From the NCBI GenBank assembly GCA_025370845.1, contig JAMXFF010000003.1, positions 73,581 to 137,580 of the forward strand: a stretch of 64,000 bases of DNA. The letters are read 5' to 3'. The notes beneath the pieces were generated by a model. The model did no database searches and had not been told where the DNA came from. It saw only the letters and a list, made by a program, of their open reading frames with translations. The translations under genes and the position numbers were made by a program. Position 1 is the stretch's first letter; the number at the start of each line of letters is the position of its first letter. This stretch comes from Laspinema palackyanum D2a. Its GTDB lineage: Bacteria > Cyanobacteriota > Cyanobacteriia > Cyanobacteriales > Laspinemataceae. Below are positions 3,763 to 52,800 of this stretch, piece by piece.

Positions 3763-5052
3763 ATGAAAAATTTAGAGTTGCTCGATGAAACCATTCGCAA
3801 CTTAGAGCAGGAAGCCAATCTCACTCGCATTAAAAAATTAATGCTTTGTCTATGTCAGGGAAGATGGGAAAACAATGCTGAATTACTGTCCGCCTTGAAT
3901 TTACGCGACTTAATTATTGAAGTCTGCGAAGTCACCGGAACTTTAGACAATCTTAAATTTTCTTTAGATGGAATTGTCAGCAATATTAATAAACCGCAAC
4001 AATATACGTTAGTTGCTAAAATTTTAATTTCAACTTTGGGTAAATTTTATGAAGAGGGTTCAACCCAGTCCGGACTCTCAGATTTTCCCCCTCCTCCGGA
4101 TCTCGCCAATACCCTGGTCATTGTGTCTGACTTTACCAATGAGACTGACTTTGACCTGCCGAATTACCCTGAATCTCTGACTCCTATCTCGCGAGAAAAA
4201 ATATTTGATTTGCGGCTCAAAGTAGTTCAGCACACGAGTCCATTACGGGCCAAAATTCTCATCTTCTCGGCCCTCGATCGCCTCTTTGAATTTAATCGGG
4301 ATGAAGACTGGCTCAACTTAAAAAAAATCCAGCTAGACGAACTGTTCCAGCAAATTTATGAACTCTGTCCCAGTGTTGAGGCTCTCGAATCTCACTTGTA
4401 TGAAACTGCCAAAAACCTCCCCGAAGCAGATGAAAACTATCAATCGGCTGGGGTGATTGTCCAGTACATGACGCCGTTATATTCCCCAATCGGAAAACTC
4501 CCCCCCCTCCCGGACTCGATCGCCCCCGGGAGCGATCGCTGGAATGCTGCACCGGGCATCCCGGGGAGCGAAGAAAACAGCAGTGCTAGTCAAGGCTTTA
4601 TCCCAGATGATGATGACGATCGCGATTATAGTGAAATCATGGATGAAAGTCAGGACAGTAGCGATATATTGAGCGAAGTCTTACCCCCCGTCTCCACGAA
4701 TTCCGGAACTCTGAACGGTAGCGATCGCAAATTTTCCTTAAGCGCCCTCAAAAAAATCGATCCGGTTCAACAAAAACAAGAACTAGAGAAAAAACTAAAT
4801 CTTAAAGTCAACCACAGTGTGGAAGAAATTGTGCAATTTATTGAAAATCGCTTAAATCATCTCGAACGGGAAATTAGCGAAGAACTCGAACCCCTAGACA
4901 TTGAAGACGGAATTTCAGTCAAATATGAAACGATGGGAGATTTTATCACCCAAGTCAAACAGGCTACTTCTCAATTCCTAGAACTTCTGATAAACTTAGA
5001 AGAAGCCGAAAGAAACCAACCCATTGAACGAGAAGATAACTCGGGGTCTTAA
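3763..5052 (+). CDS. Hypothetical protein with acidic linker and C-terminal coiled coil
   Basis: A 429-residue protein I do not recognise. The N-terminal 210 residues are helical and look globular. They include a segment near residues 20-55 with Leu- and Cys-rich helices (KLMLCLCQGRW). A Pro/Ser/Asp-rich, probably disordered linker follows (about 245-320, with a DDDDDR run). The last 110 residues are charged and predicted helical, with a likely coiled coil (LEKKLNLKVNHSVEEIVQFI). No signal peptide or membrane span is visible. The ATG is well supported by GGAGG about 7 nt upstream. A pentapeptide-repeat gene begins 76 bp downstream on the same strand and may be co-transcribed. Confidence 0.8.
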   Translation: MKNLELLDETIRNLEQEANLTRIKKLMLCLCQGRWENNAELLSALNLRDLIIEVCEVTGTLDNLKFSLDGIVSNINKPQQYTLVAKILISTLGKFYEEGSTQSGLSDFPPPPDLANTLVIVSDFTNETDFDLPNYPESLTPISREKIFDLRLKVVQHTSPLRAKILIFSALDRLFEFNRDEDWLNLKKIQLDELFQQIYELCPSVEALESHLYETAKNLPEADENYQSAGVIVQYMTPLYSPIGKLPPLPDSIAPGSDRWNAAPGIPGSEENSSASQGFIPDDDDDRDYSEIMDESQDSSDILSEVLPPVSTNSGTLNGSDRKFSLSALKKIDPVQQKQELEKKLNLKVNHSVEEIVQFIENRLNHLEREISEELEPLDIEDGISVKYETMGDFITQVKQATSQFLELLINLEEAERNQPIEREDNSGS

Positions 5053-5128
5053 ATACCCACCGAGATAAACAAATGCAACCCTAAATCCAGGGATTCATGT
5101 CAGGGGAAAAAGCGGGGAAAGAGGGATA

Positions 5129-6130
5129 ATGTTGATGAATGTCGAAGAATTATTGCGGCGCTATACAGCCGGAGAAACCAATTTTAACGGAGCCAGTCTC
5201 TGGGGGGCAAACCTTCGCGGGGCGGATTTAATTGGGGCGAAATTACGGGGAGCGGACCTCCACGGAGCGGACCTAATTTTTGCCTACTTGAGCCGAGTCA
5301 ACCTGAGTGCTGCCTACTTAGTTAGTACCAAACTCAGTGGTGCCAACCTCAATCAAGCCAATCTCTCCGGTGCCAATCTCAGCGATGCGGACCTACATGG
5401 GGCGACCCTCCAAGGTGCCGATCTTCGGAAAGCAAACCTCAATTTAGCCAATCTACTGGATGCGAACCTCAGCGATGCGGATTTGCGCGGAACCACCTTG
5501 AGCGGGGTTTGTTTGCGCGGAGCCTGTTTGCGCGGGGCCAACTTCCGGGAGGAACGGCGGATCTACAGTGCGGCGAACTTGCGGGGTGCAGATTTACGGG
5601 GTGCGGATTTGCGCGGGGTCAACCTTAGCGGTGCGGACTTGACAAAGGCGGATTTAAGTGGGGCAAATCTCACCGAAACCAACTTGCGCGGGGCGAATTT
5701 GGAACGGGCAAAAATGGCCTCAGCAATTGTTAACGGAGGGTTTTTGAGTGATGCGAATCTATCTTATGTAGATTTGAGCGGGGCTTGTATGACCAATGTC
5801 AAGCTAGAACGAGCGCTATTGGGCGAGGCGAATTTGGAGGGAGCTAAACTGGATGTGGCGATCATCACTGATGCCAAACTGGGGAAAGCCAACTTATCCG
5901 GGGCAAATTTAACCCGGGCGAATCTATCTCGGACGGATTTGAGTCGGGCGAATCTGTCTCATGCGCTGTTGAATGAGGCGAATCTATGTGAGGCATATTT
6001 AGCCCGAACGAATTTAATGCGGTCCAATTTGACTAAAGCGAGCTTAATCCGAGCAGAAATGAGCGGCGCGAATACGGCTGGGGCGTTATTTAGTCAGACG
6101 ACGATGCCGAATGGGGATGTGCAGAATTAA
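5129..6130 (+). CDS. Pentapeptide repeat protein
   Basis: A 333-residue protein built almost entirely of A(D/N)Lxx pentapeptide repeats, for example GANLRGADLIGAKLRGADLH. Such repeats fold into a right-handed quadrilateral beta-helix. Residues 1-15 (MLMNVEELLRRYTAG) are a short non-repeat cap. An interruption at about residues 139-147 (REERRIYSA) breaks the register and may form a loop. There is no signal peptide or membrane segment, so it is probably cytoplasmic. Family members act as binding scaffolds or DNA mimics, but no role can be assigned here. A purine-rich GGGAAAGAGGG lies just upstream of the ATG. Confidence 0.93.
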   Translation: MLMNVEELLRRYTAGETNFNGASLWGANLRGADLIGAKLRGADLHGADLIFAYLSRVNLSAAYLVSTKLSGANLNQANLSGANLSDADLHGATLQGADLRKANLNLANLLDANLSDADLRGTTLSGVCLRGACLRGANFREERRIYSAANLRGADLRGADLRGVNLSGADLTKADLSGANLTETNLRGANLERAKMASAIVNGGFLSDANLSYVDLSGACMTNVKLERALLGEANLEGAKLDVAIITDAKLGKANLSGANLTRANLSRTDLSRANLSHALLNEANLCEAYLARTNLMRSNLTKASLIRAEMSGANTAGALFSQTTMPNGDVQN

Positions 6131-6190
6131 ACCGATCGCCCATTTGTAGTATAAAAAACCGTGAGCGAATAGTCTAGGGAGAACAGGCAG

Positions 6191-7702
6191 ATGACCCAGT
6201 ATGATGCGATCGCCATTGGCAGTGGAATTGGCGGGTTAGTCACAGCAGCCTTACTGGCTCGGTATGGCAAGCGCGTACTCGTTTGTGAGAGTCATGCGAT
6301 CGCCGGAGGTGCTGCTCATGGATTTTCTCGCCAGGGATTTCACTTCGACTCCGGACCCTCCTTTTACTGCGGATTAGGAGATTCCCACAGCCTCAACCCC
6401 CTGCGCCAAGTCCTGGAACTCCTGGGAGAAACGGTGCAAACCATCGCCTACGACCCCTTGGGACATTATCACCTCGGGGAGATTACCCTGCCCATTTACG
6501 GCAGTTGCGATCGCTATCGGGCGGAAATTGCTGCCATTACCCCCACGGGAGCCAAGGAACTTCAACGGTTTGAACGGCGGATGTTGTCCTTGTATGACGC
6601 GCTCAAAGGCATACCTACGTTAATCTTACGCAGCGATCGCAAGCTGCTTCCCGTCCTCCTGTCATACTGGCCCGCCTTGCTCCAATTACTGCCCCATCTT
6701 CGGGAGATTCAAGGGTCCGTGGGTCAACTCCTCGATCGCGATGTGAAAGACCCCTTCGTGCGGCGTTTAATCGACCTGGAATGCTTCTTACTCTCCGGAT
6801 TCAAAGCTCATGGCACGATCGCCCCAGAAGTGGCCTTTATGTTCGGAGAACGCAGTCGCAGCGCCATCGACTATCCCCTAGGCGGGAGTACCGCCCTGAT
6901 TGAAGCCCTCGTGCGGGGATTAACCCGATGGGGAGGGGAACTGCGCCTGAATGCTCATGTGGAGCGCATTTTAGTCGAGGGGGGGCGAGTCACCGGGGTG
7001 CGTCTGCGAAATGGCACCCTCCTCAAAGCACCGATTGTCATTTCTAATGCCACGATTTGGGATACCTATACCCATCTGCTGGCACCGGAGGACCTCCCGG
7101 AATCTTATCGCCGTCAAGCCCTAGAAACCCCGGTTTTAGATAGTTTTATGCATCTGCACCTGGGAATTAGAGCGGAAGGATTAACCGGATTGACGGGACA
7201 TCATGTGGTGGTTCATGACGGCGATCGCGACATTACCGAACCGGGGAATACCTGTATGATTTCCATTCCCTCGGTTTGGGACCCCAATCTGGCCCCAGCG
7301 GGACATCATGGGATTCATGCTTATACGATGGAACCCTACCAGTCTTGGCAGTCTGATGTCACTTATAAAGCGCGGAAGCGACTGCGAGCACAATCGCTAT
7401 TTCGAGCCTTAGAACGGATTATTCCCGATCTGCGCGATCGCATCGTCCTCGAACTGATTGGTACTCCCCTCACCCATGCCAAATTCCTGCGGCGCGATCG
7501 AGGGACTTATGGTCCGGCGATCGCCGCTGGGAAAGGGACATTTCCCAGTATTCATACTCCCATTGCCGGATTATACCGAGTGGGGGATAGCACCCTTCCT
7601 GGGATTGGAGTGCCAGCGGTAGCAGCATCGGGAATCCTCTGTGCCAACACCCTGGTGGAACCGGAGCAAACCGCACAATTACTCAAAACTCACCGGACGT
7701 GA
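6191..7702 (+). CDS. FAD-dependent oxidoreductase, CrtI/CrtISO-like carotenoid desaturase or isomerase family
   Basis: A 503-residue flavoprotein of the phytoene desaturase / carotenoid isomerase superfamily. It starts with a dinucleotide-binding fold, AIGSGIGGLVTAALLARYGK, followed by the E at the end of beta-2 (VCESHAIAGGAAHGF). The C-terminal family signature GLYRVGDSTLPGIGVPAVAA closes the FAD site. The length fits the CrtISO-like branch. The likely substrate is a carotenoid or similar polyene, but cyanobacteria carry several paralogues with unassigned roles, so the exact reaction is open. GGGAG lies upstream of the ATG at a suitable distance. No carotenoid genes are adjacent. Confidence 0.85.
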   Translation: MTQYDAIAIGSGIGGLVTAALLARYGKRVLVCESHAIAGGAAHGFSRQGFHFDSGPSFYCGLGDSHSLNPLRQVLELLGETVQTIAYDPLGHYHLGEITLPIYGSCDRYRAEIAAITPTGAKELQRFERRMLSLYDALKGIPTLILRSDRKLLPVLLSYWPALLQLLPHLREIQGSVGQLLDRDVKDPFVRRLIDLECFLLSGFKAHGTIAPEVAFMFGERSRSAIDYPLGGSTALIEALVRGLTRWGGELRLNAHVERILVEGGRVTGVRLRNGTLLKAPIVISNATIWDTYTHLLAPEDLPESYRRQALETPVLDSFMHLHLGIRAEGLTGLTGHHVVVHDGDRDITEPGNTCMISIPSVWDPNLAPAGHHGIHAYTMEPYQSWQSDVTYKARKRLRAQSLFRALERIIPDLRDRIVLELIGTPLTHAKFLRRDRGTYGPAIAAGKGTFPSIHTPIAGLYRVGDSTLPGIGVPAVAASGILCANTLVEPEQTAQLLKTHRT

Positions 7703-15368: not shown

Positions 15369-17204
15369 TTACCACTGGGGAGAACGGGCTAATAATTCGC
15401 CGATCGCCTCTGGATCTAAGGGTTTAGAGAAGAGGTATCCCTGGGCGAAATCACAGCCTAATCCTCGGAGTTTTTCTAATTGGATGGGAGTTTCCACCCC
15501 TTCGGCGATCGCAATCATGCCCATTGTGTGAGCAATTCCAATAATACCAGGAACCAATCCGCACTGATGTTCCTTGCCATCGATGCGCTGGATAAAGGAC
15601 CGGTCAATTTTGAGGACATTGACCGGAAATTCTTCTAGGTAACTTAAGGAAGAATAGCCGGTGCCAAAGTCATCAATGCTTAATTCAATGTGGCAGTCGC
15701 GAATTTGATGGAGAATATCTAGGGTGGCTTGGTTTTTATTGGCGATCGCACTTTCAGTAATTTCCAGTTTAATCATTTGCGGATTAATTTGTGTAGATTC
15801 CAGGAGTTCCCGCAGATGCTGGATAAACGAAAATTGCAGAAAATGCCGCGCTGATAAATTGACACTACAAGTTACCGTGTCATTAATCAGGGTTTGATGT
15901 TGCCATGCTTGGAGTTGTCGCACGGATTCCCCTAATACCCACAGGTCAATTTGGGCGATTAAACCCGTTTCTTCGGCGACGGGGATAAAATCAATGGGAG
16001 AGATAAATCCCCGGGTGGGATGTTGCCAGCGCACGAGGGCTTCAAAGCCATAAATTTGCCCCGTAGTTAGGGAAATAATCGGCTGATAATAAACTTTAAA
16101 TTCCTGTCGTTCTACGGCGCGTCGCAAGTCGTTTTCAAGTTTGAGACGGTTTAATGCCTCGTCATGCATTCCCGGATCAAAGAGATAATATTGGCCTTTG
16201 CCTAGGGCTTTGGCGCGGTACATGGCGGTGTCTGCATCTCGGAGGAGATATTCGGGTTTTTCGTGATAGAAACTCCCCAGGGTAATGCCGATACTGGCAT
16301 TAATAAAGACTTCATACCGGGAGAGTTGAAAGGGTTCGGTTAAAGAGTTTAAGATGCGATCGGCGATGGTTTGGGCGCGATCGAGGGTGGGGAGTTCTTC
16401 GACGAGGACAGCAAATTCATCGCCCCCTAACCGGGCTAAGGTATCTTCTTCTCGGAGGGCGGATTGGAGGCGTTTGCCAATGGCAATTAGGAGTTCATCT
16501 CCGACGAGATGACCGAGAGAATCGTTGACAACTTTAAAGCGATCGCAGTCTAAAAAGAGGACGGCAAACTGATAATGGGGGTTAGCTTGTCGGAAGGCGA
16601 TCGCCTGGGCCAATCGTTCCATAAATAAAGCACGATTGGGTAAATTTGTCAAGGGGTCATGAAGGGCTAAATGGAGTAACCGTTCTTGGAGTTGCTTGCG
16701 TTCCTTGATTTCCTGAACGAGTTCTTGATTGGACTGTTCTAATTGGAGGGTGCGTTCTTGGACCCGAGTTTCCAGTTCCGCATTGAGTTGCTGAATTTTT
16801 AATTCAGCATCCCGGCGCAGGAGTTGGGTTTGGATGCGCGCTAAAACCTCTTCCAATTGAAAGGGTTTACTAATGTAATCGATGCCGCCGACATTAAAGG
16901 CTTTGACCTTATCAAAAGCATCATCTAAGGCACTCAAAAAAATCACGGGGACTTCACAAGTGGCTTCATTTGCTTTTAAAATTTCGCAAACTTGATACCC
17001 GCTCATATCCGGCATCATAATATCCAGTAAAATCAGGTCCGGGACGACCACGCGACAGGCTTTGAGAGCCATTTGACCATTTAAGGCTTTGCGAACTTTA
17101 TAGCCTTCCTCGGTTAAAATCGTGGCCAGATAGCGGAGATTATCTTGGGTATCATCCACGATTAGAATATCTTTTTGGAGCAGTTGAACAGATTCGGCGT
17201 TCAT
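15369..17204 (-). CDS. Response regulator with GGDEF and EAL domains (c-di-GMP turnover)
   Basis: A 611-residue soluble regulator. The receiver (about 12-128) has phospho-Asp61 in LLDIMMPDMSG. A coiled coil (130-175) follows, then GGDEF (about 178-340) with intact GGDEF at 260-264 and an RxxD inhibitory site, REED, at 251-254. The EAL domain (about 352-605) has EAL at 388-390 and the later catalytic motifs NLSARHF, LEITES, DDFGTGYSSL, KIDRSF and EGVET. Both active sites look complete, so it may both make and break c-di-GMP, with the receiver setting the balance. It overlaps the upstream hybrid kinase by 4 nt (ATGA), making that kinase its likely phosphodonor. It converges with the redoxin gene across the repeat region. 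Confidence 0.95.
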   Translation of the reverse strand: MNAESVQLLQKDILIVDDTQDNLRYLATILTEEGYKVRKALNGQMALKACRVVVPDLILLDIMMPDMSGYQVCEILKANEATCEVPVIFLSALDDAFDKVKAFNVGGIDYISKPFQLEEVLARIQTQLLRRDAELKIQQLNAELETRVQERTLQLEQSNQELVQEIKERKQLQERLLHLALHDPLTNLPNRALFMERLAQAIAFRQANPHYQFAVLFLDCDRFKVVNDSLGHLVGDELLIAIGKRLQSALREEDTLARLGGDEFAVLVEELPTLDRAQTIADRILNSLTEPFQLSRYEVFINASIGITLGSFYHEKPEYLLRDADTAMYRAKALGKGQYYLFDPGMHDEALNRLKLENDLRRAVERQEFKVYYQPIISLTTGQIYGFEALVRWQHPTRGFISPIDFIPVAEETGLIAQIDLWVLGESVRQLQAWQHQTLINDTVTCSVNLSARHFLQFSFIQHLRELLESTQINPQMIKLEITESAIANKNQATLDILHQIRDCHIELSIDDFGTGYSSLSYLEEFPVNVLKIDRSFIQRIDGKEHQCGLVPGIIGIAHTMGMIAIAEGVETPIQLEKLRGLGCDFAQGYLFSKPLDPEAIGELLARSPQW

Positions 17205-20200
17205 TGGCCCTCCTGTTGAGTCAATTCCTCAATCAGATCAAACTGATAGTTATGGGCTAACTCCGCTAAGGCTTGGGATAGGGGGGCTAGATCCGGGGGA
17301 ATCTCTTCGAGTAAGTGTAAAATCAAATCATCGCTGCATTGCATAGCGGCATCATAAAGCTGATGAATCCAACTTTGGGGCATAATTTTCAAAGCCTCCG
17401 GGGAGAGGGAATACAGGGGTTTAGAACTATCTGGAGGGGAGCCTTTTTGGTCCGGGGAGAGGTCTTCAAAAATATAGTCAATATTCAGATATTTGCCGAT
17501 GGTTTCGAGCAAAAAGTCTTCTTGAAACGGCTTGCGAATGAAGTCATCGCAACCGGCATCTAAAATCATTTTTCTTTCTTCCTCAAAAGCACTAGCCGTT
17601 AAGGCGACGATGGTCGTTTTTTGACCCTGAACGGTATTTTTAATATGTCGGGTGGCTTCATAACCATCCATGACGGGCATTTGCATATCCATTAAAATTA
17701 AGTGAGGTTTCCAACTTTCATAAACCGCGATCGCCCCTTGGCCGTTCTCCGCCTCTTGCACTTGAAATCCGATGGATTGCAAGATTGTCTTCAACAACAG
17801 ACGACTTTCAAAAGCATCATCCACGACTAAAATGCGAGATTCCTTCCCCTGAGCTTGGGGGGCGATCGCCACGGCACGGCGCTTGGTTTGGCGAGTTTGA
17901 ACCTCTCCCTCGCTACTCGGTGCGATCGCCACGGCAAAGGCAAACACCGTTCCTTGCCCCACAGTGCTGGTGACCTGAATATCCCCTCCCATTAATTGTA
18001 CGAACTTTCGGCTAATTGGTAAACCCAGGCCCGTCCCTTGCTGAGATTTACGTCCTGTTTCTGTTTGTCCAAAGGGTTCAAACAATTTCCCCATTTCCTC
18101 GGGAGCAATCCCTGGACCCGTATCCTCAATTTCCAAATATAAGAACTTCCCCTGATTACCGGAGTCCGAAAAATCCCCCGGGTCAGGATTCACCCCCGTC
18201 AAGGCATCTTTCACTTCAATCCGGAGGATAACGCGACCTGTTTCCGTAAACTTAATGGCATTCCCCACAATATTAATCAGGACCTGACGTAACTTGCTCT
18301 CATCGGTTTTCACAAACTGAGGAAGGGTCTCGCACCCCTCAAAAATAATCTGAAGTTGCTTGGACTCCGCCTTGAGCTGAAACATCTCATTTAAGGATTT
18401 CAGCAAATTAAGCAAATCAAAATTGACCGGATTAAAACTCATCCTCCCCGCTTCAATTTTGGACATCTCCAACACATCATTAATTAAAGCTAAAAGATGC
18501 CCTCCGGCCCGATTAATAATTTTTAAATGCTCGTGATTTTCAGGTTTCAGGGAGGAATCCCGGGCCAAAACTTGAGTAAACCCCAAAATTGCATTTAGCG
18601 GAGTTCGCAGTTCATGGCTCATATTGGCGAGAAACTCACTTTTGGCCCGGTTAGCCGCATCCGCAGCGAGGGCGGCTTTTTGGAGGGCGTGGGATTGTCG
18701 CTGAGTTTTGTCCAGTAACTCCGCTTGCTGGAGGGCAACTCCCAACTGATTACCAATTTGCACCACCACTTTAATTTCTGCTTCTTTCCAATGGCGAGGG
18801 CCGCTATTTTGATAGCTGGCTAATAATCCCCAGAGTTTATTCCCCGAAAAAATCGGAACAATAATATAGGCTTTGGCTTGAAATTGCTCTAGGATAGTGA
18901 GGTAAGACTCATCAAAGCCTGCATTGTAAACATCTTCAACCGCCAAATAGGTCAAACCTAAATTCCACTCTTCAGTTCGGGCAGATTGCATATAGCAATC
19001 TTCTAGTACAACCTCGTTGTCCCCGAGTAAATTAGAGTCATCCCCGTTCAGTTTCACCTCCGTTTCGGGTAAATCCTGGATGTTATCCATTAAAGAAATC
19101 CATTCGGGACCCGTGGATTCCGCCACCACCTCACCTCGCCAGTCGTCATGAAAATGGTGAACTAAAACGCGATCGCACTTGAGCACCTGGCGCAATTCCC
19201 GGGTGGTTGCCGAAAAAATCGTTTCCAAATCCAGCGTCTCGCGCATCCGTTGAATCACTTGGGACAGGGCCCGTTCCCGTTGGACACTTTCCTGTAACGC
19301 TTCTTCCGCTTTTTTGCGTTCCGTAATATCCGTTAACGTCCCGGTGAGTCGGTAGGCTTCCCCCTCTTCATTCCGGATACATTTACCCTTGACTTCCACC
19401 CAAATCCAACTCTTATCTTTCCGTTCCATGCGGTGGGTATGATAATAGTATAGCGGATTTTGCCCTTGCACATGGTCTTGCAGGGTTTGCATCGCCACAG
19501 ACAAATCGTCCGGGTGGACCTTGTTAAACCAAGTGCTAACCCGATAGGGTAATTCCCCTTCCTCATAGCCTAAAATTTGCATCCAGACTGGAGAGTAATA
19601 AATTTGGTCATTTTTTAAATCCCAATCCCAAATCCCATCATTCGTCCCAGATACGGCTAATTTAAACCGTTCCTCACTTTCGCGCAGGGCATCTTCAGCC
19701 CGTTTGCGTTCCAACAGTTCAGTTTTAGCTTGCTCAAACAGGGTACATTGTTGAATGGCGATGGACAATTGCACGGAAAGCTGCCGGAGAGATTCAATTT
19801 CCGATTCATGCCATTGTCTTTCGCCGCTACAGTGATGAGCAATCAGCAATCCCCATAATTGTTCCCCTTGTCGCAGAGGAACCACGAGATTCGCTTGAAC
19901 TGCAAACCGACTGAGAAGTTCTACATGACAGTCCGAAAGTCCAGCGGTGTTAATATTATCAATCGACCGAATTCGACCTTCCGCATAGAGAGGAATATGG
20001 GTTTCAATAAAACAGCGATCTTCGATTTCAATTCCTTTGACAGACATCCAGTCAGAACCTACGGATTCAACGGCAATCACCCCACCCCAATCCGGGTTAA
20101 AACGGTAAATTAAAATGCGGTCCGTGGCTAAAAAGCGGCGAACTTCATTCACTGCGGTTTCCAGGACTTCTTCTAAGTCAAGAGAGGATCGAATCCGTTC

Positions 20201-22687
20201 CTGAATAGAACTCACTAGGCGTTCCCGTTTTAGCTGCTGCTGTAAGGCAATTTCCGCCCGTTTGCGTTCGCTGATATCCGTAATGGTGCCGAGATAGCCC
20301 TGAACTTTGCGATCATCGCCGATTTCCGCGATCGCCTGCCCGATCGCCCAAACTACAATCCCATCAGGACGAACAAAGCGATATTCTGACTTAAACGGAA
20401 CCCGAGTTTCCGCAGCTAAAAACCACTCCGATTGCACCCGCTTTAAATCATCGGGATGGAGATTGGCAATCCAACTTTTGCCGATCGCCTGTTCTAAAGA
20501 AAGTCCCGTCAACTCCGTCCAACGCTGGTTAACATAAAGACAATTTCCCTGAGCATCCGTATGAAAAATACAAACCGGAGAAGCTTCAGCTAGGGTTTGA
20601 TACCGACGCTGACTCTCCTCTAAGGCTGCTTCCGCCGTTTTTCGGGGTGTAATATCTTTATGGGTGCCGCTCATGCGTAAGGGGATACCAGATGGGTCTC
20701 TTTCTACTACTTTACCGCGAGAGAGAATCCATTTCCACTCCCCAGACTGCGATCGCATTCGTAATTCCCGTTCATATACCGGGAGAATCCCCTGTAAATG
20801 GTCCTGTAATGCCCGCAGGGTTGGCTTCCGGTCCGATGGATGTAATAATTCTTCCCAGATTTGATAGTAATTGTCAATTTCCTCAACTTCATACCCCAGC
20901 ATCCGTTTCCATTGCGGGTCAAAATAGGTTTTGCCTGTGGGAATTTGCCAATCCCAAATGCCCAAATCACTGCCTTCCAAGGCCAATTGTAAGCGCCGTT
21001 CACTCTCACTCAAGGCAGCTTCTGCCACCTTTTGTCCGATGGAGGAACCTAACTGAGTGGCAACCGCCCCCACTAAGGCGATCGCCCGGTCATCTCGGGG
21101 ACTTTCTATGCGTTTAAAGAAGGTTAAAACTGCTAAAATCCCATTGCCTCGGATAATGGGTACGGCAAAACTGGCTTTTAATCCCTGTTTTACCGCCATG
21201 ACTGCATCGGCAAGGGGTTCAGTTTCCTCGGTCAAATTTTCAATCCAGTCCGGTTGCCGAGACTCCCAAACCCGTCCGGGAAGTCCTTCCCCCAACGGAT
21301 AGGTAACCGTTTCCCGTTGCAGTCGGAACCCTTCCACATCGGGTTCTGGATAATACCAACCGGGACGATAGGTGAGGATTTGCTGAGTTTCATCGGGAAG
21401 CCACGCCTCGGCTACATCCCAATTAATGGTCATACAAATTGAGCGTAAGACAGAGGCGATCGCTGTTTCTAAATCCGGTGCATGACGGATGGCTTGATTG
21501 GTATCTAACAGCAGCCGAATTTCGTCTTCACTTTGCTTGCGATCGCTGATATTACTAAAGGTACAAACGACTCGTTCAACTTGGCCCGATGCATCGAGTT
21601 GGGGGTCCATATTCAGCAGCAACCAGACTGTATCTTTTTTCCCCCACCGACAGATTCCCGTGACTTGATTTTGCACAGGTTGACCCTGGGCGACTGCCTG
21701 ATGAAGGGGATTTTGTTCTTGAAGGGAAATCTTGCCATCTAGGGAAAGAATTTGCCAATTGAACTCGAAGGCATTTTTCCCTTGCAACCCTGAATTTGGG
21801 ACATCCAACAGTTCACTAGCTAGGGGATTACTTAATAAAATATTGCCTTTGGCATCCAGAAGTAATACCCCAACGGGCATATTTTCCACCAAAGTGCGGA
21901 ATCGGATTTCACTTTCTTGGAGGGCCTGTTCTCGTAACAGGCGGGATTGATACCGGCGATCGACCAGGGAGGTAATCAGGGTGCCTATCAGCAAAATCAG
22001 CGTTCCTACGCCGATTTGCATCGCTAACCAGGATTGGTCCGCCCCTTGAATCAGTATCGCTTCTGGGTGGGAAATTGCCGCAAAACAGGTGGCCCACATT
22101 CCGGTATAGTGCATCCCGGCGATCGCCACTCCCATAATTCCGGCACTCCCCAGTTTCACCCATTCCCGATGAGGACTGAGGGAGTCGCGAACCTCAAATG
22201 CTAACCCTAACGCCGTAGTCGAGGCAAAAATGGCGACTGCCACAGACAGGGTGACGCCCCAGGGATTGTAATGGAGGGTTGCCGGGACCTGGACTGCTGC
22301 CATTCCTAGATAATGCATCGAAGCGATCGCCAATCCCATGACCACACCCCCTCCCACCAGGAGGCCGACCCTCAACTGCTGACGATTGTACAGCAACATC
22401 GCCAAAGCCGAAGCTACAATCGCATCCACCCAAGACAACAGGGTAAGCGGGATATTGTATGCCGTGGGGACGGGCAACTGTAACGCCAACATCGCGATAA
22501 AATGCATCGACCAGATGCCGGTTCCCATCGCCACGGCACCTCCGACACTCCAGATTAAGCGCGATCGCATCGAAGAGTTTGGATTAACCCGTCCCGCTAA
22601 ATCCAACGCCGTGTAAGAAGCAACTGCCCCAATAATTAATGAAAGCGTGACTAAAACCGGCTCATACTGACCCCGAATTATGTCCAT
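17201..22687 (-). CDS. MHYT-PAS-GAF hybrid histidine kinase with a DXCF cyanobacteriochrome-type GAF
   Basis: A giant hybrid kinase, 1828 residues from the preferred ATG at 22687, which has AGGGA 8 nt upstream; an in-frame ATG at 22723 adds 12 residues. Residues 10-235 form a MHYT membrane sensor with three repeats (MHFIAM, MHYLGM, MHYTGM). Next come PAS, GAF, PAS, PAS, GAF2 (about 825-985), PAS, GAF3, HisKA with His1358 (MSHELRTPLN), HATPase (GTGLGLPIS) and a receiver (LMDMQMPVMDG). A 65-residue tail ends the protein. GAF2 holds EDRCF (Cys892) and SDCHVELL (Cys920), the two bilin-linking cysteines of DXCF cyanobacteriochromes, spaced 28 apart. GAF3 is similar but lacks the second Cys (DESYL). 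Light sensing is inferred; membrane redox or gas sensing by MHYT is a family suggestion. Its stop overlaps the GGDEF-EAL gene by 4 nt. Confidence 0.94.
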   Translation of the reverse strand: MDIIRGQYEPVLVTLSLIIGAVASYTALDLAGRVNPNSSMRSRLIWSVGGAVAMGTGIWSMHFIAMLALQLPVPTAYNIPLTLLSWVDAIVASALAMLLYNRQQLRVGLLVGGGVVMGLAIASMHYLGMAAVQVPATLHYNPWGVTLSVAVAIFASTTALGLAFEVRDSLSPHREWVKLGSAGIMGVAIAGMHYTGMWATCFAAISHPEAILIQGADQSWLAMQIGVGTLILLIGTLITSLVDRRYQSRLLREQALQESEIRFRTLVENMPVGVLLLDAKGNILLSNPLASELLDVPNSGLQGKNAFEFNWQILSLDGKISLQEQNPLHQAVAQGQPVQNQVTGICRWGKKDTVWLLLNMDPQLDASGQVERVVCTFSNISDRKQSEDEIRLLLDTNQAIRHAPDLETAIASVLRSICMTINWDVAEAWLPDETQQILTYRPGWYYPEPDVEGFRLQRETVTYPLGEGLPGRVWESRQPDWIENLTEETEPLADAVMAVKQGLKASFAVPIIRGNGILAVLTFFKRIESPRDDRAIALVGAVATQLGSSIGQKVAEAALSESERRLQLALEGSDLGIWDWQIPTGKTYFDPQWKRMLGYEVEEIDNYYQIWEELLHPSDRKPTLRALQDHLQGILPVYERELRMRSQSGEWKWILSRGKVVERDPSGIPLRMSGTHKDITPRKTAEAALEESQRRYQTLAEASPVCIFHTDAQGNCLYVNQRWTELTGLSLEQAIGKSWIANLHPDDLKRVQSEWFLAAETRVPFKSEYRFVRPDGIVVWAIGQAIAEIGDDRKVQGYLGTITDISERKRAEIALQQQLKRERLVSSIQERIRSSLDLEEVLETAVNEVRRFLATDRILIYRFNPDWGGVIAVESVGSDWMSVKGIEIEDRCFIETHIPLYAEGRIRSIDNINTAGLSDCHVELLSRFAVQANLVVPLRQGEQLWGLLIAHHCSGERQWHESEIESLRQLSVQLSIAIQQCTLFEQAKTELLERKRAEDALRESEERFKLAVSGTNDGIWDWDLKNDQIYYSPVWMQILGYEEGELPYRVSTWFNKVHPDDLSVAMQTLQDHVQGQNPLYYYHTHRMERKDKSWIWVEVKGKCIRNEEGEAYRLTGTLTDITERKKAEEALQESVQRERALSQVIQRMRETLDLETIFSATTRELRQVLKCDRVLVHHFHDDWRGEVVAESTGPEWISLMDNIQDLPETEVKLNGDDSNLLGDNEVVLEDCYMQSARTEEWNLGLTYLAVEDVYNAGFDESYLTILEQFQAKAYIIVPIFSGNKLWGLLASYQNSGPRHWKEAEIKVVVQIGNQLGVALQQAELLDKTQRQSHALQKAALAADAANRAKSEFLANMSHELRTPLNAILGFTQVLARDSSLKPENHEHLKIINRAGGHLLALINDVLEMSKIEAGRMSFNPVNFDLLNLLKSLNEMFQLKAESKQLQIIFEGCETLPQFVKTDESKLRQVLINIVGNAIKFTETGRVILRIEVKDALTGVNPDPGDFSDSGNQGKFLYLEIEDTGPGIAPEEMGKLFEPFGQTETGRKSQQGTGLGLPISRKFVQLMGGDIQVTSTVGQGTVFAFAVAIAPSSEGEVQTRQTKRRAVAIAPQAQGKESRILVVDDAFESRLLLKTILQSIGFQVQEAENGQGAIAVYESWKPHLILMDMQMPVMDGYEATRHIKNTVQGQKTTIVALTASAFEEERKMILDAGCDDFIRKPFQEDFLLETIGKYLNIDYIFEDLSPDQKGSPPDSSKPLYSLSPEALKIMPQSWIHQLYDAAMQCSDDLILHLLEEIPPDLAPLSQALAELAHNYQFDLIEELTQQEGQ

Positions 22688-23221: not shown

Positions 23222-23683
23222 ATGAATCAACAGCGTCTCAATGATTTACAAGAAAATCTGGACCTACTTTATGAAAAGTTGGGGATGTTTGAACAAGAAC
23301 TCGCTATTTGTGCAAACGCGAATCAAAAATTTGAACTGAAGCAACGAATCAAGAAAGAAATTATCCCTCAAATTAAAGGCTATGAAGTTGAGTTTTGGGA
23401 GATAATAGCTCAAGATGCGGGGGTTTATTTTGAAAATCCAGATGAACAAACGGCAACGGAGGTTTTAGCAACGCTCCAATCAGAAGTCACGGCAATCGAA
23501 CGAGTTAATAGTAGCACTTCTTCTAATGAAGTGATGGAAATTATTCGAGATATTCAAGCCAAACTAAATGAACCGGAGGCATCTGCATCGGCCAAGCTAA
23601 AGGGGACTATCCCGTTAGTTCCATTACTTTTATCCTGTGAAGTAGAGCTAGATATTGAAAAGTTTCTTTTTAACAAAGTGTGA
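23222..23683 (+). CDS. Coiled-coil protein, effector-associated-domain-like (copy A)
   Basis: A 153-residue protein, paralogous to the one at 24934. The N-terminal 60 residues are helical (MNQQRLNDLQENLDLLYEKL then KFELKQRIKKEIIPQIKGY). This pattern is like the short helical effector-associated domains in cyanobacterial NTPase-based conflict systems. A linker and a conserved C-terminal patch (SAKLKGTIPLVPLLLSCEVE) follow. No enzyme motif is seen. It probably acts as an adaptor joining partners by homotypic contact. Its stop TGA overlaps a GTG (GTGTGA) that would open a 14-codon frame, a point of difference from copy B. AAGG precedes the ATG. The family assignment is inference. Confidence 0.78.
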   Translation: MNQQRLNDLQENLDLLYEKLGMFEQELAICANANQKFELKQRIKKEIIPQIKGYEVEFWEIIAQDAGVYFENPDEQTATEVLATLQSEVTAIERVNSSTSSNEVMEIIRDIQAKLNEPEASASAKLKGTIPLVPLLLSCEVELDIEKFLFNKV

Positions 23684-23727
23684 CAACCGCTCCGCCGGAA
23701 GTTATTAAGATTGAGATAATATAGAGT

Positions 23728-24723
23728 GTGTTAGAAAAAGCTATACAAGACTTAAAAAAAGCCAGAAGCAAATGGTTAGAAAGGATAAGTTATTTGGAGC
23801 TAGACTTTTCCATAACATCTGATCCAAGCACTAAGTTTACATTAAAAAAACAGATAGAAGAATGCAAAAAAGAAAGTGAAAGGCTACAGAGAGAAATCCA
23901 AGAACTATTAGAACTGCCAAGTATTTACCGCTATAAGCGCCAGAACAAGTGTTTTAAACAAGGCCTTGGAGACGGCGTAATATTAATATTAATGAAAATT
24001 CCCCCTGGAGAGTTCCTGATGGGTGCACCAGAGACCGCACCCGAAAGTTTTGACAGCCAACGACCCCAGCATCGAGTGAGGCTAGAACCATTTTTTATGG
24101 GGTGCTATCCAGTTACTCAGGCACAATGGCGGGTGGTGGCAAATTATCCGCAAGTTGAGCGAGATTTAGACCCGAATCCGTCAAGATTTACAGGAGAGAA
24201 TCGTCCAGTAGAAAATGTTTCCTGGGATTATGCAACAGAGTTTTGCAAGCGATTGTCTGCCAAGACGGGACGGGAATATTGCTTACCCAGTGAAGCCGAA
24301 TGGGAATATGCTTGTAGATCGGGCATGGAAACCCCCTTTCATTTCGGAGAAACGATAACGACTGAGTTGGCAAATTATAACGGAAATTATCCTTTTAATG
24401 ATAATGAAGGCTCTCAAGGAGAGTATCGAAAAACTACGACAGAAGTTGGCAGCTTTCCGGCAAATGAATGGGGCCTTCACGATATGCATGGGAATGTTTG
24501 GGAGTGGTGTGAAGATGATTGGCATGATAACTATGAAGGTGCGCCTAATGATGGAACCGCTTGGATTGAGGAAAATCGGACAGGAACTGGACGAGTATTT
24601 CGAGGAGGTTCTTACTTCAGTAACCCGGGACACTGTTCCTCTGCTTTTCGCGATAACGGTACGCGCATCACCCTGATCAACGATATGGGGTTTCGAGTCG
24701 TCTGCCATCTGCCGTTCCCGTAG
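23728..24723 (+). CDS. FGE-sulfatase-domain protein with N-terminal coiled coil
   Basis: A 331-residue protein. Residues 1-65 form a coiled coil (STKFTLKKQIEECKKESERL) resembling the helices of its neighbours. Residues 75-331 are a formylglycine-generating-enzyme-like domain: IPPGEFLMGAP, HRVRLEPFFMGCYPVT, CLPSEAEWEYACRSG, LHDMHGNVWEWCEDDW, RGGSYFS and GFRVVC. Only the second of the two cysteines used by copper-dependent FGE oxidases is matched (GHCSSAF); the first is Ser. So it is probably a ligand-binding C-type-lectin-like domain rather than a sulfatase activator. The GTG start has a weak ribosome site. It sits between the two coiled-coil copies and probably belongs to the same conflict-type locus. 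Confidence 0.85.
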   Translation: MLEKAIQDLKKARSKWLERISYLELDFSITSDPSTKFTLKKQIEECKKESERLQREIQELLELPSIYRYKRQNKCFKQGLGDGVILILMKIPPGEFLMGAPETAPESFDSQRPQHRVRLEPFFMGCYPVTQAQWRVVANYPQVERDLDPNPSRFTGENRPVENVSWDYATEFCKRLSAKTGREYCLPSEAEWEYACRSGMETPFHFGETITTELANYNGNYPFNDNEGSQGEYRKTTTEVGSFPANEWGLHDMHGNVWEWCEDDWHDNYEGAPNDGTAWIEENRTGTGRVFRGGSYFSNPGHCSSAFRDNGTRITLINDMGFRVVCHLPFP

Positions 24724-24933
24724 ACCCTTCTTTTGTGTCATGGGGAATCCCTTAAGCTAGACTGGAAATTGCGACAATCCCGTTGAATTGTAAATTTTTG
24801 TATGAGTCCCTTGCACCGGAATGACCGAATCCCTTAAAATCAGGAAGGAGAACTAGAGCCAGCATTTGCTTGGGGTTCTGAAGCCTGGGCGTCAAGTTAA
24901 GCGAGTTTCGGGGAATTTTTTCAAGGTTAACTC

Positions 24934-25434
24934 ATGAATCAACAGCGTCTCAAAGATTTACAAGACAATCTGGACCTACTTGATGAAAAGTTGGGGATGT
25001 TTGAACAAGAACTCATTATTTGTGCAAACGCCAATCAAAAATTTGAAGTTAAGCAACGAATCAAGAAAGAAATTATACCTCAAATTGAACGCTATGAAAC
25101 TGAATTTTGGGGGATAATAACAACTCAAGATCCGGGGGTAGTTTTTGAAAATGCAGATGAACACACGGTAACGGAGGTCTTGACAAGTATCCAATCAGCA
25201 GTAACGGCAATCAAACGAGTTAATAGCAGCAATTCTTCTAATGAATTGATGGAAATTCTCCGAGATATTCAAGCCAAACTAAATCAACCGGAGGCATCTG
25301 CATCGGCCAAACTAAAAGGGACTATCCCGTTAGTTCCAGGACTGTTATCCTATGAAGTTGAGCTAGATACTGAAAAGTTTATTTCTAATAGAGTGTTACA
25401 AGGGGCCAGAAAGTTATTAAAAAAGCCCTTCTAA
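24934..25434 (+). CDS. Coiled-coil protein, effector-associated-domain-like (copy B)
   Basis: A 166-residue paralogue of the protein at 23222, very similar along its length and with the same 5' leader. It carries the same N-terminal helices (KFEVKQRIKKEIIPQIERYE) and the patch SAKLKGTIPLVPGLLSYEVE. It is 13 residues longer because the TGA that ends copy A reads TTA here (25396-25398). The extension LQGARKLLKKPF overlaps, in another frame, the upstream part of the VMAP-like reading frame. It probably serves as the adaptor partner of the VMAP/MoxR/vWA proteins that follow. No catalytic motif seen. Confidence 0.78.
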   Translation: MNQQRLKDLQDNLDLLDEKLGMFEQELIICANANQKFEVKQRIKKEIIPQIERYETEFWGIITTQDPGVVFENADEHTVTEVLTSIQSAVTAIKRVNSSNSSNELMEILRDIQAKLNQPEASASAKLKGTIPLVPGLLSYEVELDTEKFISNRVLQGARKLLKKPF

Positions 25435-25538
25435 AAACATCGGGTCCAATCATCGAGTTTGATTTAATAGAAGAGTTAAAAACATGGAAAGAAAAGCATG
25501 AAGATTTACAAAGAAAAATCGAAGAAGAACTATTAAAA

Positions 25539-26492
25539 TTGCATCAAAGCCAAGACAGCTTGATTTTGAATAGGTTGAAAAATTCCAATATTTTACTTTC
25601 TCAAAATAAACAACCAATGAATATAGTTTGGTTGCCAAGAGATGAGCGAGTGAATCCATGCCATCAGGTATCGGCTCATTTGACGATTGCAGTTTTTCCG
25701 GATCTTCAGAGAAAACAAAGCATTCGGATTCTACCGGAACTGTACTATGATGACCCTAAAGAGGCGGAAATCGCTCTAATACCTCTAGTAGAAGACACCT
25801 GTTCGGAGGCGATCGCAAAGTTTCCGGAGGTTTTACATGGGTTAGTTAAGTATGTAACAACTAACAAATTAAGAGCGCTTCATAAAGGCATCAATCCTGT
25901 AGAACTGACAATTTATTTGTTTCTACCTGTTGAGTTCTTAGGTTACTCATTAAAATATTGGTGTAGTGAATCAAGTAAGCTCGCTACAAGCTATCCCGTT
26001 GTTGTAGGATGTTCAGATCGGTTTAACCCTGATCGTGACGATTCATGGAGGTTGCATAATCAACTAAAAAAGGGATGGGAACGGCTATCTAAGTCTGCAA
26101 CAGCACTTCGTCAGGTGAAGTGGATTCAACCGGATGAATCGTTTAATGGTGACCTGGAACGCTATGCCGGACTGCAATGCTTTGGTCACTGGCTAAAATC
26201 AGGGGAAAAATATCTCGATCGCTGGGAAAAACTCGTCGAGTCTGGGATTCCCCTAGCATTGTGGATGTGCGAAGTAGAAGCTGACCGAGAGGCGATCGCC
26301 CAAACCTTTAACTCGCTCACGGATTGCAATGTCTCAGAATTTTTGCAGCGTGTTCGGCAAGAGCGTCGGCAACCCTCAATATCGGTAGCCAATTCCGGTT
26401 ATCATCTGGGTGTCTTCTATGAAGATCCCAACTACGTGCCGACCGTTCCTCCCCAGGACGAGGATGAACCGTTTTTTTCCTGGCCGCAATGA
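25539..26492 (+). CDS. VMAP-C-domain-like protein (vWA-MoxR associated), start uncertain
   Basis: The predicted 317 residues from a TTG. The body looks like the C-terminal domain of vWA-MoxR associated proteins: an alpha/beta region with LTIYLFLPVEFLGYSLKYW and PVVVGCSDRFN, the LALWMCEVEADREAIA helix, and the ending GYHLGVFYEDPNYVP. In such ternary systems this protein links a MoxR ATPase to a vWA protein. The same frame stays open upstream to at least 25395 and encodes coil-like residues (DLIEELKTWKEKHEDLQRKI), but holds no ATG or GTG. At 25395 it reads GTT where copy A has GTG. The gene may therefore have lost its original start. Full-length relatives usually have another N-terminal domain. 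The MoxR gene follows after 16 bp. Confidence 0.7.
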   Translation: MHQSQDSLILNRLKNSNILLSQNKQPMNIVWLPRDERVNPCHQVSAHLTIAVFPDLQRKQSIRILPELYYDDPKEAEIALIPLVEDTCSEAIAKFPEVLHGLVKYVTTNKLRALHKGINPVELTIYLFLPVEFLGYSLKYWCSESSKLATSYPVVVGCSDRFNPDRDDSWRLHNQLKKGWERLSKSATALRQVKWIQPDESFNGDLERYAGLQCFGHWLKSGEKYLDRWEKLVESGIPLALWMCEVEADREAIAQTFNSLTDCNVSEFLQRVRQERRQPSISVANSGYHLGVFYEDPNYVPTVPPQDEDEPFFSWPQ

Positions 26493-49855: not shown

Positions 49856-52800
49856 ATGATTACCCTTTCCGACGTGAGTTTAACCCAAAAACTGTACGAA
49901 AGCAGTAATTCTGAAGTCTATCGCGGGTATCTGCAAGCATCGGGACAACCCGTGATTTTGAAAAGTCTTAGAAATGCCTATTCCGTTCCCGAACGGCTGG
50001 GGTGGTTTTGGCGCGAATATGAAGTGACGCGATCGCTCAACTTATCCGGAATCCCCCAAATCTATGGGTTCAGCAACGAGGGCAACAGTCCGTTTTTCCT
50101 CTTAGAAGATTTTGGGGCGGAATCCTTAAGCCGGTTAAAAATTGCCGGACAACTAGACCTGAGAGATTTTTTAAAATTAGCCATTGATATCACGGAAATT
50201 CTCTCACAAATTCACGACCAGAACATCATTCATAAAGACATTAACCCCAGCAATATTGTCTTAAATCCCCAGACTGGACAAGTCAAAATTATCGATTTTG
50301 GCATTTCAGCGGTGTTATCCAAGGAAAATCCGATTTTCCAAAATGCCAATCGGATTGAAGGCACCTTATCCTATATGTCCCCAGAACAAACCGGGCGGAT
50401 GAATCGGTGCATTGACTATCGCACAGATTTTTATTCCCTGGGGGTAACCTTTTACCACCTCTTAAGCGGGACCTTACCCTTCCAAAGTGAGGACCAGATG
50501 GAATGGGTCCATAGTCATATTGCCAAACCGCCCATTTCTCTCCAAACGGTTAAACCGCAAATTCCCGCCACCCTGTCCAACTTAATTGCCAAATTAATGG
50601 CTAAAAATGCCGAAGAACGCTATCAATCGGCTTATGGATTGAAGGCGGACTTAGAAGAATGTTTGCGGCAGATTGAGACTGAAAACACCATCAAACCCTT
50701 TTCCTTGGGACAGCAGGACCTTTCGGACCGATTTCAATTACCCCAACAGTTGTATGGACGGGAGAGAGAAATTCAGACCTTATTGGCGGCATTTGAACGC
50801 ACTGCCGAGGGGAATCGGGAACTGATTCTGGTGGCGGGATATGCCGGGGTGGGTAAATCCGCTTTAGTCCGAGAAATTCATAAACCCGTCGCGGCTAAAC
50901 GGGGTAATTTTATTTCGGGAAAATTTGACCAATACCAAAGAAATATTCCCTATTTAGGGCTGGGACAAGCCTTCAATGAGTTTTGTAATTTTATCTTAGG
51001 GGAACCTGAAGCAGTTTTTGCTCAATGGCGCAGTCGAATTTTAGCCGCCCTCGGTAATAGCGGGCAGATTTTAATTGAATTAATCCCCAATTTAGAAAAA
51101 ATTATCGGACCTCAACCTCTCATGGCGGATTTGGGGGGACAGGAAGCGCAAAATCGGCTGCATTGGGTGGTTCAAAACTTTTTGAAAGCCGTTTGCGATC
51201 GCGAACATCCTCTGGTGATTTTTCTCGATGACCTCCAGTGGTCGGATCTGGCTTCTTTAACCTTGTTAGAAGCGATTCTGAGCGATCGCGATTTGCAATT
51301 TTTGTTGATAATTGGGGCCTATCGCGATCACGAAGTCGATGGTACCCATCCCCTGATGATGACGAAGGCACATCTGGAAACCGAATTCCCGAACCTAATC
51401 ACCATCGCCTTGGACAATCTCACGGGTTCTGATGTAGCCGACTTAATCGCCACCACCCTACACTCCCCCCGGTCCTTGGTGCAACCCTTAGCGGATTTAG
51501 TCTATGCCAAGACCCGGGGTAATGCCTTTTTTACCCTGGAATTTTTGAATTTCCTCTATCAGGACGGGTTGATTTATTTAAGTGGCGATCGCCAAACCTG
51601 GAACTGGAGTTTGGCCCAAATTGAATCCCTCGGAATCACCGATAATGTGGTTGATTTAATGGAGAGTCAACTGGTCAAATTTAACCCTGAAACCCAAACT
51701 CTCTTACAGTTGGCCGCTTGTATTGGCAGTCCCTTTGATTTGGAAACCTTAAGCCGAATTGCGCGATCGCAACCCGAGGCGGTGTTAAGCCATTTATTTT
51801 CCGCCCTGCAAAGTGGATTTGTCATTCCCATCAATGAAAATTATAAATTATTGAGGGTGCTTCCCGAGATTGACACCGGAAAAATTCAGTTTAAATTTTT
51901 GCATGACCGGGTTCAACAAGCCGCCTATTCTTTAATCCCCCCAGCTCAACTTCGCGATCGGCACTTAGAAATTGGGCGCTTGCTCTGGAGTAGCGCCAAT
52001 CCCTTGGCCCTCTCCCCAGAAGACCCCTCCTTGGAGTTAACTGAAGGCTTATTTATTATCGTTAATCATCTCAATCAGGGGAGTGAGTTGATGACGGAAG
52101 AATCGGAAAAAATAAACCTGGCTTATCTCAATTTATGGGCGGGCAGAAAAGCAAAAATATCCAGTGCTTATAGTCTGGCCGCTCAATATTTAAACCACGG
52201 GTTGAGTCTGTTACCCTCCCCGAGTTGGCAGACTCATTATGGCCTCACGCTCCAGCTTTACCTAGAAGCGGTAGAAGCGGAATATCTAACCACCCATTAT
52301 CCGGAAGTAGAAGCCCGGGCAGCGGTGGTCCTCAACCAGGCCCGAACGCTGTTAGAACGGGTCAAAGTTTATCAAATCCTCATCCAATTGTATAGTGGGA
52401 TTAACCAGCTTCAAAAAGCCGTTGATACCAGTTTAATGGTGTTGGAAATGTTGGGGGTTTCCCTGGCTGAATTAGTCCCCATTCAGTGGGATATTGGGGA
52501 ATTATCCTCTCTTCCCTTGATGGAGGATGCCGATAAATTAGCGGCGATGCAGATTTTAATGAGCGTCTGGGGGACAGCGATCATTGTGACCCCGGAATGG
52601 GTCCCCAGAATGGCCTTGACGATGGTCAAGCTCTCCCTGGAATATGGAAATTCCCCCTGGGCAGCCTTTGCTTATGCCTATTATGGGTTTAATCTTTGCC
52701 GTGCAGGGGAGATAGAACGAGGCTATCAGTTAGGACAATTTGCGTTAGAATTGTTAGAGCAGTTCGAGAGTGCGGAAAGCCGCTGTAAAGTCTATCATAT

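Follow-up and report, generated by a model that had tools for sequence, protein, structure and literature searches.

The window, by which we mean the whole stretch of 64,000 nucleotides analysed from the filamentous cyanobacterium Laspinema palackyanum D2a, carries on its minus strand a gene for a membrane-anchored hybrid histidine kinase and, adjoining it, a gene for a response regulator. The kinase has the domain order MHYT - PAS - GAF1 - PAS - PAS - GAF2 - PAS - GAF3 - HisKA - HATPase_c - REC. Its counts of four PAS and three GAF domains are our reading of overlapping Pfam models, and we also set the ends of the MHYT domain. The features are:

17201..22687, minus strand: hybrid histidine kinase, 1828 residues (open frame and Pfam scan)
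21938..22687, minus strand: MHYT membrane domain, residues 1-250 (Pfam MHYT, E 1.7e-44)
21044..21475, minus strand: GAF1, residues 405-548, of GAF_2 type (Pfam)
19712..20224, minus strand: GAF2, residues 822-992, a DXCF cyanobacteriochrome domain by sequence (Pfam, PDB search, alignments, tree)
20009..20020, minus strand: DRCF motif D890-F893, with the second Cys, C892, at codon 20012-20014 (minus-strand reading, alignment)
19925..19930, minus strand: canonical Cys920-His921, Cys codon 19928-19930 (minus-strand reading, alignment)
18698..19279, minus strand: GAF3, residues about 1137-1330, a cyanobacteriochrome GAF related to red/green members and without the canonical Cys (PDB search, tree)
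18905..18907, minus strand: Ser1261, at the canonical-Cys place of GAF3 (alignment)
17930..18646, minus strand: HisKA and HATPase_c, residues 1348-1586 (Pfam)
17498..17833, minus strand: C-terminal receiver domain, residues 1619-1730 (Pfam)
15369..17204, minus strand: REC-GGDEF-EAL response regulator, with a start that shares 4 bases with the kinase stop (ORF list, Pfam)

Among Pfam families scanned at E 0.001 no PHY domain was found in the kinase, and GAF1 was unmatched by a GAF2 profile at E 1e-3. By the usual motif rules the response regulator has an intact GGDEF motif with a preceding RxxD site, and an intact EAL motif. Elsewhere in the window, two similar small ORFs (23222-23683 and 24934-25434), an FGE-sulfatase domain protein and a VMAP-C protein stand in a row at 23222-26492, which may be a vWA-MoxR-associated conflict cluster, and 49856-58618 encodes a protein of 2920 residues with the layout Ser/Thr kinase - AAA - GAF - several PAS - GAF - histidine kinase - REC.

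The first-pass annotation, made from the letters alone, had placed the motifs EDRCF (Cys codon 20012-20014) and SDCHVELL (Cys codon 19928-19930) in one GAF domain. Reading of the minus strand confirms both: GAT CGC TGT TTT encodes D890, R, C892 and F893, and GAC TGT CAT encodes D919, C920 and H921. The residue numbers it gave, 892 and 920, and the spacing of 28 hold in the open frame 17201-22687. It had also compared the pair, by motif and spacing, with the DXCF and CH cysteines of DXCF-class cyanobacteriochromes such as TePixJ; the alignment it proposed as a check, in which misplaced Cys would have refuted its idea, has now been run, and both Cys fall in, and not beside, the DXCF and canonical columns of TePixJ. 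Pairwise, D492 of TePixJ aligns with D890, C494 with C892, F495 with F893, R507 with R905, C522 with C920 and H523 with H921 (60/150 aligned residues identical). The TePixJ chains read IEDPCF where GAF2 reads IEDRCF and AGLTECH where it reads AGLSDCH, with no gap between the two Cys in either sequence or profile alignments. In TePixJ (6PRU), the bilin is attached to C522 through the A-ring side chain and to C494 through C10 (PMC6955287); DXCF domains are defined by these two Cys and are spread over various lineages (PMC11284453).

A search of PDB chains with GAF2 returned, best first, 6oap (E 3.5e-52), 6bhn, 6mgh, 7lsc, 8k9o, 5zoh, 3w2z and 3vv4; phytochrome chains ranked below those of the cyanobacteriochrome kind, with far weaker scores, and 6pru is among the entries of one matched chain. 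The PDB table uses generic molecule names such as chemotaxis protein, histidine kinase and miRFP670nano. Apart from 3w2z, 6pru and miRFP670nano, we take the matched chains to be cyanobacteriochromes. For these three the identity was taken from the literature (3w2z, AnPixJg2), from PMC6955287 (6pru, TePixJ) and from PMC9378818 (miRFP670nano). For bilin synthesis the host genome encodes a single Fe_bilin_red protein (E 8.0e-73) along with a pair of heme oxygenases (E 1.9e-90 and 9.8e-81). Membership in the DXCF class is indicated by a GAF homologous to cyanobacteriochromes with no accompanying PHY, a canonical C-H, a second Cys at the C494 column and bilin-precursor genes in the host; GAF2 is, by sequence, a DXCF cyanobacteriochrome, with bilin binding and colour as predictions. 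This supports the first-pass reading of the domain, in which the blue/green-type colour is likewise a prediction. This domain type is already known, and GAF2 is one more such photoreceptor, ordinary as a domain. In our tree GAF2 lies in a group of its own and TePixJ, on a long branch, lies elsewhere, with a weak backbone between. It is hardly conceivable that GAF2 is an ordinary ligand-binding GAF in which the Cys pair is a coincidence: nothing beyond the generic Pfam name GAF speaks for it, and sequence relatives, motif columns and tree all place the domain among cyanobacteriochromes. A chance pair is ruled out by the alignment together with the conservation described below.

The GAF2 profile matched 65 places in the host genome. 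The best 30 of the 65 were scored for the Cys pair, which makes the resulting count a minimum: at least seven distinct GAFs, each scoring more than 130 bits, combine D-X-C-F with a canonical-column Cys. They are the window's own, L023, L024, L025, L026, L029 and L037; six read C-H and one (L029) reads C-Y, and L037 is a frame of 167 residues only. Among the lower-scoring of these 30 matches the pair is absent, many of them being partial and without the motif columns. The idea that the pair is rare in this genome was accordingly rejected; a DXCF GAF is ordinary in the host organism. The first-pass annotation had not noted these further GAFs, nor the Cys-less GAF3 of the kinase or the overlapping GGDEF-EAL gene.

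Conservation was followed in eight genomes of the genus, the window's and G292-G298; the near relatives, taken by record name, are Laspinema, Phormidium pseudopriestleyi and Oscillatoria. GAF2 is present in all eight (the other seven 94-96% identical), and both of its Cys, as well as the Asp, Phe and His, are kept in 8/8. A homologue in Oscillatoria princeps (L009/L131), 59% identical over the whole protein, also keeps both GAF2 Cys. Across seven genus genomes the codon of Cys920 is TGT in three and TGC in four and that of Asp890 varies synonymously, both residues staying constant, while Cys892 is TGT in 7/7. Mean dN/dS in the same seven is 0.063 for GAF2, 0.110 for GAF3, 0.144 for MHYT and 0.202 for GAF1, and the PAS that separates GAF2 from GAF3 has 0.027; the GAF2 value is the second lowest among ten domains measured, and GAF2 is under strong purifying selection. 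D890, C892, F893 and H921 do not vary across a wider alignment of 18 domains, two of which (L012 and L019) have Ser in place of the canonical Cys. These two are DXCF-type domains of Nostoc (L012 4508-5020 and L019 6837-7349) in which the DXCF Cys is kept and the canonical place reads D-S-H.

GAF2 might instead be a relic of a cyanobacteriochrome that holds no bilin, the kinase answering some other signal. The Nostoc domains show that a DXCF domain can have Ser at the canonical place, and loss of this kind does occur in the present protein, as the missing Cys of GAF3 shows. We nevertheless regard a relic as very unlikely in view of the retention of the Cys pair, Asp, Phe and His in every genus genome, the synonymous changes at the Cys920 and Asp890 codons and the low dN/dS rank of the domain.

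GAF3 lies directly N-terminal of HisKA. Its best PDB matches are 6bhn (E 5.7e-46), 5zoh and 3w2z, and it reads S-Y (Ser1261) where all three have C-H. It departs from the XRG cyanobacteriochromes in lacking the canonical Cys and in having L-E-D-C-Y-M in place of W-x-D-x-x-L. The Cys1231 within E-D-C-Y-M was considered as a DXCF Cys and rejected; it is offset by one residue to the N-terminal side of the DXCF column, and L095/L121 have Trp there. Homologues were gathered through the MHYT domain: the best matches to the window's MHYT (36 from a phylum set, and from an order set the listed ones down to about 312 bits) gave 96 frames, or 91 after removal of 5 duplicates. A GAF3 type with readable motifs occurs in 39 of the 91; six loci with weak or partial GAF matches only (L057, L058, L159, L162, L168 and L169) were left out of this count. 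Outside the genus the canonical place is Cys, always as C-Y, in 32/32 homologues, which are related to each other and not independent. Inside it the place reads S-Y in five and A-Y in two of seven, and an eighth genome (L007/L092), whose kinase is cut by a contig end, also has Ser, so that Ser or Ala stands there in 8/8. Loss of the canonical Cys of GAF3 in the genus is well supported; purifying selection still acts on the domain (dN/dS 0.110). C-H is found in almost every red/green member; C-Y has been connected with bright fluorescence, and two C-Y cases with photoconversion that went undetected (PMC9378818).

The tree (one search, 43 rows, weak backbone) unites the GAF3 rows in one group (99/99) and nests the window's GAF3 among Cys-bearing rows, at 96/92 with L138 and the L131 group; the fork joining it with the L131 group has 96/77, and its stem measures 0.52, that of the L131 group 0.11. 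Relative-rate tests, comprising four domain comparisons with one sister (L131) and one outgroup (L138), gave 42 vs 16 for GAF3 (p 6e-4), 29/16 for MHYT (p 0.05), 24/14 for GAF2 (p 0.1) and 30/17 for HisKA-CA (p 0.06). All four domains have changed faster in the window lineage, and because the GAF3 excess over the other three domains together is not significant (Fisher p 0.32), we do not claim a speed-up specific to GAF3.

At E 1e-3 MHYT was found in 34/292 genomes of the phylum, and at E 1e-20 in 109/388 genomes of the order. Among the 91 frames, 35 have no match to a cyanobacteriochrome-type GAF and 56 have one; by our count 49/91 have at least one with a Cys, a rate that is biased because the frames were picked as best matches to the window's MHYT. 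L161 has a GAF of this type with the Cys absent, and the MHYT of L085 is damaged or partial (91 bits). A GAF of C-H type occurs in six MHYT loci (L059, L139, L141, L147, L150 and L151), with Pfam confirming kinase domains for L059 only. Pfam reads L063 3976-6705 as MHYT - cyanobacteriochrome-type GAF - PAS - MCP, possibly a membrane light-taxis transducer, and L149 and L172 have similar motifs by motif reading. No description of an MHYT cyanobacteriochrome kinase was found in the openly licensed full-text literature, where absence is weak evidence; a 2022 review, in its consulted portion, calls MHYT activity unknown and treats MHYT and cyanobacteriochrome domains apart (PMC8846402).

The GAF2 domains of MHYT kinases form one group in the tree (97/99) made up of the window's, L121, L131, L132 and L138. 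Both L131 and L138 have a two-Cys GAF2 along with a Cys-bearing GAF3, and L132 has the DXCF GAF only; from this small tree the DXCF GAF would have been gained first and the GAF3 Cys lost later. Since that Cys is kept in all 32 homologues examined outside the genus and replaced in all eight genomes searched within it, light input may have moved in the genus from GAF3 to the DXCF GAF2. A broader reading, which we put forward tentatively and hold at somewhat less than an even chance, is that of a recurrent family of MHYT-cyanobacteriochrome kinases in which a C-Y GAF3 was the ancestral input and the output was c-di-GMP or, in another branch, a nucleotide-cyclase regulator. In one lineage a DXCF domain would have been inserted upstream, and in the genus the GAF3 Cys would have been lost, leaving GAF3 as a relay and switching the input colour to blue/green with no change in membrane domain, kinase or output. 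We hold this reading slightly less probable because the GAF3 rate excess is not significant. The family setting, an old GAF without its pigment Cys and upstream of it a DXCF GAF with the pair, is less ordinary than the domain, and it suggests that cyanobacteria have repeatedly joined MHYT to a light sensor. Kinases with GAF3 only, with both domains intact (L131, L138), with the DXCF GAF only (L132) and with a Cys-less GAF3 (the genus) make a natural series in which one can ask how a sensor kinase changes its input colour without a change of output.

The 4-base overlap of the kinase gene with the REC-GGDEF-EAL gene was found in 8/8 genus genomes and in O. princeps (L009/L131); the evidence comes from 7/7 loci (six genus genomes and L009) and from a second set of seven genus loci, L131, L125 and L135. 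This overlap across the genus points to c-di-GMP as the probable output of the kinase. It is also the ground on which we infer that the REC-GGDEF-EAL protein is the partner of the kinase, which has a REC of its own as well. Over a wider range, 40 MHYT-kinase loci that carry GAF3 or a DXCF GAF divide into 23 with a frame of GGDEF-like and EAL motifs starting at most 400 bases from the kinase end and 17 without, a count made by motif only and with the variant SGDEF accepted in L143 and L146. In L122, L128, L129 and L134 the neighbouring frames have REC and a similar length without GGDEF, and in L053 the protein that follows a GAF3-bearing MHYT kinase (4975-6945) has REC, PAS, GAF and Guanylate_cyc domains and is not GGDEF-EAL. 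That a hybrid kinase of a cyanobacterium can drive a REC-GGDEF protein has a precedent in the CdgK to CdgS phosphorelay of Anabaena (PMC9927289).

Taken together, we consider it very probable that GAF2 is a DXCF cyanobacteriochrome; it would have a blue-absorbing dark state and a green-range product and would tune c-di-GMP through the overlapping REC-GGDEF-EAL gene. The direct basis is sequence, alignment, conservation, gene overlap, bilin genes and the missing Cys of GAF3; from it we infer bilin binding, colours, signal direction and partner protein. Cys920 would hold a bilin derived from phycocyanobilin (PCB) through its A ring, and PCB would probably be converted to phycoviolobilin (PVB) in the fashion of TePixJ. 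A reversible bond between Cys892 and bilin C10 would produce the blue dark state, and light would then yield the green-range product. The light-driven change would then travel along helical linkers, by way of the PAS and the Cys-less GAF3, to the HisKA dimer, and the kinase would set the phosphorylation of the REC-GGDEF-EAL protein, so that blue/green light would tune c-di-GMP. Other sensor domains of the protein (MHYT, GAF1, PAS) may dominate the input of the kinase.

The product colour is the less certain part. In alignment with 6bhn, which we take to be NpR6012g4, GAF2 has Ile871 at the beta-2 position and Phe928 at the helix-4 position; TePixJ has Val at the beta-2 Phe position. Because of Ile871 at beta-2, with Phe928 at helix 4, we prefer blue/green over blue/teal with modest confidence; Ile871 argues against a teal product without settling the matter, and the product colour stays uncertain with the helix-4 Phe present and the beta-2 Phe absent. 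GAF2 could bind bilin and still not resemble TePixJ, keeping PCB or having weak C10 ligation, and give a blue/orange, blue/teal or mixed PCB/PVB behaviour. DXCF members with green, teal, yellow and orange products are described, and one forms PVB without the second Cys (PMC5240096, PMC11284453). Phe928 with Ile871 at beta-2, and the distance of GAF2 from TePixJ in the tree, lean the same way, but the pair and its spacing are like those of TePixJ, and we judge such behaviour unlikely, if deserving some weight, and keep to the TePixJ-like blue/green photocycle.

Among known systems, CdgK of Anabaena PCC 7120 is, like the window's kinase, a membrane-bound hybrid histidine kinase containing PAS and GAF domains, and acts on CdgS, a regulator that makes c-di-GMP; it differs in having CHASE and not MHYT and in having an Hpt, and the consulted portion of the source makes no mention of a cyanobacteriochrome domain (PMC9927289). 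The GAF of TePixJ (PDB 3vv4, 4fof, 4glq, 2m7u, 6p58 and 6pru; blue/green, DXCF) has the same D-X-C-F and C-H columns and the same 28-residue spacing as GAF2, and neither has Phe at beta-2. The two are apart in the tree, however, and differ in the pocket, where Gln526 and Trp499 of TePixJ become Leu924 and His897 of GAF2; TePixJ is a chemotaxis-type transducer, whereas GAF2 belongs to a hybrid kinase. The closest solved sequence to GAF2 (79/163 identical) is 6oap, a dual sensor histidine kinase whose short name we take to be PPHK; it too is a bilin-type GAF in a histidine kinase, but has Tyr at the DXCF Cys place, where GAF2 has Cys892, so a second thioether is not expected there. Red/green AnPixJg2 (3w2z) and NpR6012g4 (presumably 6bhn), with one host paralogue, are the sister group of the MHYT-kinase GAF3 clade. 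They have W-x-D-x-x-L and C-H, whereas in the clade the first motif is mostly D-T-Y-L, lacking the Trp, and the second is C-Y; the window's GAF3 has no canonical Cys at all. SesA, SesB and SesC are cyanobacteriochromes that control c-di-GMP by light colour with the output domain inside the photoreceptor; the window's system shares with them the link between cyanobacteriochrome and c-di-GMP, but its kinase and its GGDEF-EAL are separate proteins.
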